Assembly: GCF_004359195.1 (NCBI RefSeq)
Contig: NZ_CP037954.1
Location: forward strand, 1,488,001 to 1,552,000
Direction: 5' to 3'
Length of the DNA stretch: 64,000 nucleotides
Origin: Chryseobacterium salivictor
GTDB taxonomy: Bacteria > Bacteroidota > Bacteroidia > Flavobacteriales > Weeksellaceae
Shown here: positions 14,720 to 57,125 of the stretch, piece by piece
Numbering within the stretch: position 1 is the stretch's first letter
How the letters are laid out: the number at the start of each line of letters is the position of its first letter
Program-made: the position numbers and the translations under genes
The notes under the pieces: generated by a model
Database searches by the model: none
What the model saw: the letters and a program-made list of their open reading frames with translations, nothing else
Told to the model about the DNA's origin: nothing

Positions 14720-14961
14720 GCCGTAAATTTCTTAAATTTTTTTAAAAGGTAATCTATCAATTAGAAATTTTCCTATGCTCAATTGCTCATGCAGATTCTT
14801 TAATTTTTGATCGTAAAAAATGTGAAAAACAACCTGCTTTATATTTTAGCCCCGATAGAAGCGGCATCCTCTGGCTTTTTTGAAAAAAAAGGCAGAGATA
14901 TAGCGGATAGCGGGACTGCTTTCCCAACATATTTCCCATTTTGTGGCTCCTGAAAATTCAG

Positions 14962-20575: not shown

Positions 20576-22092
<1,517 letters not shown>

Positions 22093-22304
22093 TTGAGACT
22101 CTCCGTTAGGAGAGTATAAACAAACAACACGATACGCAAGTATCAGAGCACTTGCTCAAAGTTAGCTTCAGTTTTTTCTTATTTGGACGGTTGATTATTT
22201 AAAAAATATACCCACTAGGATTAGTAATCAGGGAAGGAGATAGAGTATGAGGGAGGAATTAAGTAAAAACATTACTAATTACCCATCACCCATTACTCAT
22301 TGAG

Positions 22305-55895: not shown

Positions 55896-55925
55896 TTGTC
55901 AATTCGGAAAAAAATCTTACTTTTG
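55896..55925 (+). promoter_or_regulatory. Promoter of rpsU
   Basis: TTG (55896-55898), 19 bp, TACTTTTG (55918-55925): a full consensus match. Transcription should begin near 55932, so the mRNA leader is about 17 nt and consists almost entirely of the Shine-Dalgarno. Confidence 0.7.
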
Positions 55926-55931
55926 CAGTCC

Positions 55932-55943
55932 AAAATGAGATGT
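55932..55943 (+). promoter_or_regulatory. Extended, non-canonical Shine-Dalgarno of rpsU
   Basis: AAAATGAGATGT is the exact reverse complement of 22082-22093 at the 3' end of the 16S rRNA (ACATCTCATTTT). The core TGAGA (55936-55940) pairs with the altered anti-SD TCTCA and lies 8 nt before the ATG, the standard distance. No other start in the window shows a comparable match. Confidence 0.88.
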
Positions 55944-55948
55944 AAATT

Positions 55949-56146
55949 ATGTTAATAATCCCAGTAAAAGATGGTGAATCCATCGACAGAGCTTTAAAAA
56001 AGTACAAAAGAAAGTTTGACAAAACAGGAACTATCAGAGCTCTTAGAAGTCGTCAGCAATTCAATAAGCCTTCTGTTGTGAAGAGAGCAGCGAATACCAA
56101 AGCAGCTTACAAACAAAGAAACTTAAGCATCGAAGAACAAGCTTAA
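55949..56146 (+). CDS. rpsU: 30S ribosomal protein bS21
   Basis: A small basic protein (65 residues) on the 30S platform near the 3' end of 16S rRNA. Lys/Arg-rich helices with DGESIDRALKKYKRKFD and RALRSRQQFNKPS mark it as bS21. In Bacteroidota ribosomes bS21 helps to hide the anti-SD, and in Flavobacterium rpsU is autoregulated through an unusually strong SD used by ribosomes that lack bS21. The 12-nt SD here matches the unusual 16S tail of this genome. The gene has its own promoter and a strong terminator. Confidence 0.96.
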   Translation: MLIIPVKDGESIDRALKKYKRKFDKTGTIRALRSRQQFNKPSVVKRAANTKAAYKQRNLSIEEQA

Positions 56147-56173: not shown

Positions 56174-56213
56174 AATCACTTTTCAAATACTTATATTTGG
56201 AAAGTGATTTTTT
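56174..56213 (+). terminator. Terminator of rpsU with embedded xerC promoter box
   Basis: AATCACTTTTCAAATA and TATTTGGAAAGTGATT form a long stem, then T-run. The loop side contains TATATTTG (56192-56199), a -7 box that fits xerC (ATG at 56226). Confidence 0.85.
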
Positions 56214-56225
56214 GTTGGTTATAAT

Positions 56226-57125
56226 ATGATGACAGACCGGTTTTTAGAATATATTGAAGTAGAAAAACGATATTCGCCACATACGGTGACGAGTTACCGC
56301 AAAGATTTAACTGATTTCTCAGCTTTTCTGCTAAAGACGGAATCGCATCAGGATTTTACAAAAGTCGATAAAAAGATCATTAAAAATTTTATGACCGAAT
56401 TGAGTTTGTCCGGGATTTCTAAACGGAGCATCAATAGAAAACTCTCTTCTTTGCGGAGCTTTTTTCTCTTTCTGCTCAAGATTGATGAAGTGAAGGTTTC
56501 GCCGCTTGAAAGTATTCACTCCCTGAAATTTTTTGCCGAAAAACAAATTCCTTTTTCAGAAGAGGAAATGTTGGAACTCGAATCGATTGAAGGGAAGCCT
56601 AAAACCGGAAGTTTCCTGAAGGAATTAATTATCGAAACGCTGTATCAAACAGGAATGCGGAGGGCAGAATTAACAGGTCTTTTGTTTGATAATGTTGACT
56701 TTAGCAAAAAAGAAATCATGGTAACCGGTAAAGGGAATAAGTCTCGCATCATCCCTGTCTCCGAAAAACTTATTAAAGGTTTTGAACAGTATTTACCCAC
56801 AAGAAAACCTCTGAAAACGGATGAGGCGTATTTTTTTGTAAGTAAAAAAGGTGAAAAACTCAATGATAAATTTGTCTATTCTGCTGTAAATTCCTACCTT
56901 GGTCTTGTTACTTCGAAGTCGAAAAAGAGCCCTCATATTTTACGGCACAGTTTTGCTACTCATGTTTTAGAAAATGGGGCTGAAATTTCTAAGCTGAAGA
57001 AATTAATGGGACATTCGTCTTTGGCCTCAACCCAGGTTTATACCACAGCGAATATTGAACAATTAAAAAAAGTGTTTAACAATGCTCATCCTAGAGCGAT
57101 AAAAAATGTAGATTATGAAAATTAA
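56226..57125 (+). CDS. xerC: Tyrosine recombinase XerC/XerD
   Basis: Site-specific recombinase that resolves chromosome dimers at dif. 299 residues: SAM-like N-terminal domain (1-95) and catalytic domain. R145 (TGMRRAEL), K169 (GKGNKSR), H237 and R240 (HILRHSF), H263 (GHSS) and nucleophile Y272 have exactly the spacing of E. coli XerD (148, 172, 244, 247, 270, 279). XerC versus XerD is assigned loosely. The hpf gene starts inside its 3' end (11-bp overlap), so the two are coupled. Confidence 0.94.
   Translation: MMTDRFLEYIEVEKRYSPHTVTSYRKDLTDFSAFLLKTESHQDFTKVDKKIIKNFMTELSLSGISKRSINRKLSSLRSFFLFLLKIDEVKVSPLESIHSLKFFAEKQIPFSEEEMLELESIEGKPKTGSFLKELIIETLYQTGMRRAELTGLLFDNVDFSKKEIMVTGKGNKSRIIPVSEKLIKGFEQYLPTRKPLKTDEAYFFVSKKGEKLNDKFVYSAVNSYLGLVTSKSKKSPHILRHSFATHVLENGAEISKLKKLMGHSSLASTQVYTTANIEQLKKVFNNAHPRAIKNVDYEN

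Follow-up and report, generated by a model that had tools for sequence, protein, structure and literature searches.

An extended rpsU Shine-Dalgarno sequence matched to the altered 16S rRNA tail of Chryseobacterium salivictor, and its covariation with that tail across the Weeksellaceae

Flavobacteriales typically possess one gene with a strong Shine-Dalgarno sequence (SD; PMC9976891). In F. johnsoniae, ribosomes lacking bS21 favour rpsU, the gene encoding this protein, which amounts to autoregulation (PMC9976891), and single changes at 16S positions 1535-1537 are tolerated (PMC8710568). About 80% of Flavobacteriales satisfy the two criteria of PMC9976891, the exceptions being mostly Blattabacteriaceae, so that some exceptions are already known. 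The closest described cases are the chryseobacteria and related genera, in which the anti-SD reads UCUCA and rpsU is preceded, "in all these organisms", by the full complement (PMC9976891, citing Jha et al. 2021), a covariation restated in PMC8710568. Genomes described as SD-scarce and without CCUCC include those of Weeksella virosa, a Chryseobacterium, Riemerella anatipestifer and a Cardinium (PMC10783764).

We analyzed a stretch of 64,000 nucleotides of the C. salivictor genome (the window), in which rpsU is preceded by an SD complementary to the tail of the organism's own 16S rRNA. It should be noted that the core of this finding, a UCUCA tail matched at rpsU, is already known: the window shares core, gene and full complementarity with the group of Jha et al. 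2021, as described in PMC9976891 and PMC8710568, and is an example of the published type. The covariation of leader and tail, presented as new in the initial annotation of this DNA, is likewise already in print in these two papers. Compared with the group as printed, position 1543 also covaries here and a UCUCU state is added. As far as the literature compared here goes, in which Jha et al. 2021 is represented by the papers citing it alone, the new elements are the UCUCU step, the exceptions within the family, the lack of an rpsU match of 8 nt or more in 18 of 18 altered genomes outside it, and a link between loss of the SD and drift of the tail. The main text of PMC9976891 makes no mention of UCUCU, Weeksella, Empedobacter or Apibacter, and the consulted portions of PMC10783764, PMC10931766, PMC9723584 and PMC10250234 contain neither a UCUCU state nor SD loss in Weeksella.

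The rpsU gene (55949..56146, + strand) encodes a bS21 protein of 65 aa (Pfam Ribosomal_S21, 5e-17; 7jil chain z, 6e-23). Its extended SD, AAAATGAGATGT (55932..55943, + strand), read directly from the sequence, is the exact complement of the 16S 3' tail ACATCTCATTTT (22082..22093, + strand), giving 12 nt of complementarity to 16S 1532-1543. The SD ends 5 nt before the ATG at 55949, and the spacing from its TGAGA core to the ATG is 8 nt; the match, the coordinates and the spacing given in the initial annotation were all borne out by re-reading. The 16S rRNA gene occupies 20576..22092 (+ strand, Rfam span), with the altered anti-SD core UCUCA at 22085-22089. A genome-wide search allowing up to 3 mismatches returned four identical 16S tails and would have revealed any copy with CCTCC; there is none. 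The tail differs from that of E. coli at three positions. Its description as altered stands for 1535 and 1539, which are special, and falls for A1532, which is ordinary for the order, being present in all 15 genomes of other families from which a tail was read.

The exact 12-mer occurs five times in the whole genome (one contig of 3,139,453 bp), four of the occurrences lying antisense to the 16S tails and the fifth before rpsU. We also took a census of SD windows for 493 ORFs drawn from the window and 30 further stretches (664 kb together, 21% of the genome), the starts being the first ATGs of long ORFs rather than those of curated genes, with a mock window farther upstream of the same ORFs as a control. 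The pairing of rpsU with its own tail (12 nt, -14.4 kcal/mol, ViennaRNA) stood apart from the second-best SD window (6 nt, -9.1 kcal/mol) and from the longest other match, of 8 nt. A longest match of 8 nt was likewise obtained in the mock window, where one instance reached -10 kcal/mol or below. TGAGA was found 5' of four genes, rpsU counted, vs. seven in the mock window, and pairing at -3 kcal/mol or below was seen for 63 of 493 genes vs. 134 of 493, respectively; SD-like pairing is thus otherwise avoided in this genome. Within the 64-kb window, words resembling the 12-mer with 2 mismatches allowed were not in excess (14 observed vs. 16.3 expected), and inspection by eye of the rpsR and rpsF leaders showed no comparable SD (bS18 was identified by Pfam; bS6, which adjoins it, was named by eye). 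By the genome-wide search for the exact 12-mer, the ORF census and these two leaders, no gene other than rpsU has such an SD. This agrees with the statement in the initial annotation that other genes show no such match, and the signal is not spread over many genes of the 493-ORF sample.

The rpsU mRNA leader folds unremarkably (z -0.96). A candidate promoter element upstream, TACTTTTG (55918..55925, + strand), resembles TAnnTTTG, which we take to be a -7 box motif. The candidate ends 6 nt before the SD, so that transcription would start close to the SD and the rpsU leader would contain hardly anything else. A sigma-70 scan of the + strand at rpsU found no promoter, its model not covering the TAnnTTTG type. 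Downstream of rpsU, and before the next gene, lies a terminator-like hairpin of 16 pairs followed by a T run (56174..56209, + strand; a consensus match only). A XerC/D-like tyrosine recombinase gene (56226..57125, + strand) is found downstream of rpsU here and in most relatives. Elsewhere in the window is a Flavo-1 sRNA (14844-14921; Rfam RF01705, 63 bits). The prfB gene is a single open frame of 370 aa, covering profile positions 1-352 with no internal stop and no frameshift; Weeksellaceae seem without exception to lack this frameshift (PMC8710568).

The anti-SD may also be masked in the rRNA precursor. A predicted pre-16S hairpin, UCUCA-UUUU-UGAGA (22085..22098, + strand), would hide it before maturation, and may keep unfinished subunits off rpsU; 38 nt of the precursor are predicted to fold into two hairpins of -14.8 kcal/mol together (z -3.2). 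Nearly every tail examined is followed by a trailer GAG that might pair with the CUC that is invariant in the anti-SD.

The locus resembles the F. johnsoniae bS21 circuit in having one gene with an extended SD and a Tyr54 homologue in bS21. With its 12 pairs and -14.4 kcal/mol, rpsU falls within the published range for such SDs (9-13 consecutive pairs, below -13 kcal/mol; PMC9976891), the energies coming from ViennaRNA here and from free_scan there. Residues 1-57 of the C. salivictor protein align to 7jil_z, and Tyr54, described as uniquely conserved in Bacteroidia and as stacking on A1534 (PMC9976891), is present. Unlike in F. johnsoniae, the anti-SD is altered and the helix is weaker and A/U-richer, as known here from sequence; rpsU of a canonical relative (G297) pairs at -20.8 kcal/mol, vs. 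-14 to -15 kcal/mol here. By analogy with F. johnsoniae, bS21, bS18 and bS6 would normally sequester the 16S tail. In a shortage of bS21, the tail of 30S subunits lacking this protein would be free, and such subunits would favour rpsU mRNA for initiation, yielding more bS21. We consider it highly probable that pairing of the 12-nt SD with 16S 1532-1543 drives bS21 autoregulation in this organism.

The tail pocket may differ within the window's UCUCA clade. Among 59 bS21 proteins of the family, residue 54 is His in 24 of 32 genomes of this clade (e.g. L011, L012, L021, L028 and L033), and Tyr in 27 of 27 genomes from the remaining genera. The His54-rich clade retains the rpsU SD. Homologues of bS21 are also encoded by phages, in 11 of 50,697 phage records (LR756504.1 and ten more), mostly uncultured or metagenomic.

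Of the 296 genomes in the family, at least 221 match the first 16S-tail pattern. We searched 80 of the 296, picked to span all 28 genera and to thin the largest ones. The leader search matched 71 of them (some not at rpsU) and the tail search 58, resulting in a comparison table of 59 rpsU leaders and 49 leader-tail pairs. Twenty further leaders, left out of the table, all carry TGAGATG; no bS21 was found in one genome (G040). Genomes of the family include Apibacter adventoris, A. mensalis, A. muscae, Profundicola chukchiensis, Flavobacteriaceae bacterium Ap0902, Moheibacter lacus, M. sediminis and Weeksella virosa; Apibacter and Moheibacter are Weeksellaceae in the NCBI taxonomy.

An rpsU match of 11-13 nt to the genome's own tail was found in 38 of the 49 Weeksellaceae genomes, with the SD ending 4-6 nt before the ATG in every one. 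Twenty-nine of these, from the 17 genera of the window's clade, have a UCUCA tail. The other nine have a UCUCU tail and a perfect match of 13 nt (four Apibacter, two g16 genomes, namely Profundicola and Ap0902, and three g25 genomes). The match shrinks when leader and tail are of different classes: UCUCA leaders match UCUCU tails over 6-7 nt, UCUCU leaders match the UCUCA tail over 7 nt, and the match of either class drops to 3-4 nt on a canonical tail, the two kinds of UCUCU tail still giving 11 nt with each other's leaders. We counted pair types in 43 genomes with at least 10 of 13 matches (39 from the family and 4 from other families). Position 1535 is U-A in 39 and C-G in 4; position 1539 is A-U in 29, U-A in 10 and C-G in 4; position 1543 is U-A in 31, A-U in 5 and C-G in 4, with one wobble and two unpaired, and position 1544 is paired in 13. 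Leader and tail therefore covary at 1535, 1539 and 1543 across the family and the order, 1539 and 1543 each showing three pair types once the canonical relatives are included. Compensatory evolution, proposed in the initial annotation from the two loci of the window, is upheld by the own-tail matches and by their loss on swapped tails. The covariation that it suggested seeking across the Weeksellaceae is indeed there, along with 11 exceptions in 49 genomes that it did not foresee.

We weighed two other explanations of the rpsU match. That leader and tail agree over 12 nt by chance is vanishingly improbable: the SD is the sole non-rRNA copy of the 12-mer in 3.14 Mb and sits at SD distance, and own-tail matches recur in the relatives. 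We rejected chance on this genome-wide uniqueness and these recurrent matches. A less simple case is an extended SD that merely raises basal rpsU translation, with no feedback by bS21-less ribosomes in this lineage. Species with no rpsU SD live, and sequence alone cannot separate constitutive from regulated use, autoregulation having been demonstrated in F. johnsoniae (PMC9976891). Against this, SD-like pairing is otherwise avoided in the 493-ORF sample (63/493 vs. 134/493 in the mock window) and Tyr54 of bS21 is kept; an occluded tail is thus to be expected, and intact ribosomes would make poor use of an SD that was simply strong. We regard a purely basal role as rather unlikely, and prefer autoregulation by bS21-lacking ribosomes.

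The 11 family genomes lacking a long rpsU match indicate that the circuit is dispensable in some lineages. Seven of them, four of genus g18 and three of g24 (including W. virosa), have a UCUCA tail and at most 6 matching nt at rpsU, which contradicts the phrase "in all these organisms" as read in PMC9976891. Apibacter muscae and Moheibacter are UCUCU genomes. A. muscae has a changed tail (C1533U) with an rpsU match of 5 nt, and no rpsU SD. The three g8 genomes (Moheibacter and a related MAG) have matches of 6, 7 and 9 nt, i.e. a weak SD, and an additional g8-like MAG has a match of 4 nt. PMC10783764 describes functional anti-SDs as lost, whereas in most of the Weeksellaceae studied here one gene still matches the altered tail. 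The SD-less rpsU leaders of g18 and g24 share the sequence AAAGAAA(A)TAGAT before the ATG (L020, L025, L027, L029, L032 and the g18 leaders). Moheibacter lacus (L039, G007), where the SD of the main rpsU is weak, has a second bS21-like gene, 44% identical to that of the window.

Tails were also obtained from 15 of 33 genomes representing 14 other families of the order. Five of these have an altered core (ACUCC, CCUCA, UCUCC, UCUCU and UCUCA, respectively), and none of the five has an rpsU SD, the match being 4-5 nt. The leader was read in nine of the ten outgroups with a canonical core: six match over 7-12 nt with GGAG, and three (G301, G320 and G312) match over 6 nt, keeping CCUCC without an rpsU SD. 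Loss of the SD is thus not always followed by drift of the tail.

A scan of named genomes for UCUCU tails yielded 33 loci, of which 23 were taken into a bS21 search and 20 gave a bS21; the ten loci left out belong to additional strains or contigs of Apibacter, Blattabacterium and Moheibacter. Six of the 20 are Weeksellaceae-like, five of them already in the family table, with an rpsU match of 13 nt in three, 9 nt in one and none retained in two. The other 13 (Blattabacterium, Shikimatogenerans, three Cardinium, an Amoebophilaceae MAG, a Chitinophagales MAG, and six MAGs or single cells that bear the labels Flavobacteriales, Bacteroidetes or Bacteroidota and are counted here as outside the family) match over 4-7 nt, the single 7-nt match being A-rich and worth -4.5 kcal/mol. 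None of the 18 genomes with an altered anti-SD outside the family thus reaches an rpsU match of 8 nt or more, a count in which some MAGs could be misbinned and which should be read alongside the 7 nt accepted as an SD among the canonical outgroups and in the rate test below. A Polaribacter MAG (L197/L228) was dropped from this count; its 16S contig is probably misbinned, since the tail equals that of two Flavobacteriales MAGs with another type of bS21, and its own rpsU SD is of the canonical type.

To place these changes we used tail-blind trees of 16S and XerC, each gene apart, with FastTree supports. Apibacter is sister to the window's clade (1.00 in both trees). Genera g18 and g24 group together (0.98 in 16S, 0.97 in XerC), g18 not being one clade in 16S, and Moheibacter adjoins them (0.59 and 0.96, respectively). 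The family is monophyletic in 16S (0.96) and not in XerC, where G298 groups with g16 and g25 (0.82). Fitch parsimony on the 16S tree places C1535U on the stem of the Weeksellaceae (f1) together with families f4 and f15, C1539U on the f1 stem, and U1539A twice, matched by rpsU in the window's clade and unmatched in g18 and g24. The anti-SD would accordingly have moved from CCUCC to UCUCC, then to UCUCU, and twice from there to UCUCA. After C1535U, and again after C1539U, the old SD would still pair strongly with the tail through a G.U wobble: idealised duplexes along this path have energies of -19.2, -16.6, -17.2, -14.5 and -14.8 kcal/mol, the G.U steps being those at -16.6 and -14.5. The U1539A mismatch weakens the idealised duplex to -10.6 kcal/mol, so that the final step must have passed through a less stable pairing.

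Tail changes per unit of 16S branch length numbered 6 in 2.48 where the rpsU SD is kept and 14 in 1.20 where it is lost or weak. Over six codings, the ratio of the two rates ranged from 3.6 to 10.1 (simple binomial p 0.0007-0.015, uncorrected for tree or reconstruction error or for the six codings), in a test based on one 16S tree, few events and a Fitch reconstruction with arbitrary ties. This roughly 4- to 10-fold higher rate of tail change in lineages with a lost or weak rpsU SD suggests that one mRNA holds the anti-SD in place. The fast tails of SD-less lineages could instead have arisen through AT bias, small population size or a host-bound lifestyle, with no release from the rpsU constraint involved, and many SD-less altered tails do belong to endosymbionts or small-genome MAGs (Blattabacterium, Cardinium, Shikimatogenerans). 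The rates are, on the other hand, already expressed per 16S branch length. The excess also persists without family f15, composed mostly of genomes of 0.3-0.6 Mb (ratio 3.7), and when the window's family is taken by itself (10.1, or 8.1 if Moheibacter is scored as having kept the SD), where the g24 (Weeksella) and g8 (Moheibacter) genomes measure 2.3-3.2 Mb. We find this explanation possible, if somewhat doubtful. It is likely that the rpsU SD is the main force keeping the 16S tail in place, the tail drifting where the SD is lost. The more detailed scenario strikes us as an even call: rpsU mRNA anchors the anti-SD, the Weeksellaceae tail walked over G.U steps together with rpsU, and drift followed where the SD was dropped, in the Weeksella-like genera, Apibacter muscae, in part Moheibacter, and lineages outside the family.

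The window thus holds a published example of natural covariation between an rRNA and an mRNA. The family around it, with three tracked tail states and several losses of the SD, constitutes a natural experiment. With it, one can ask directly if conservation of the anti-SD, in a lineage that makes no other use of this element, is due to a single customer gene.
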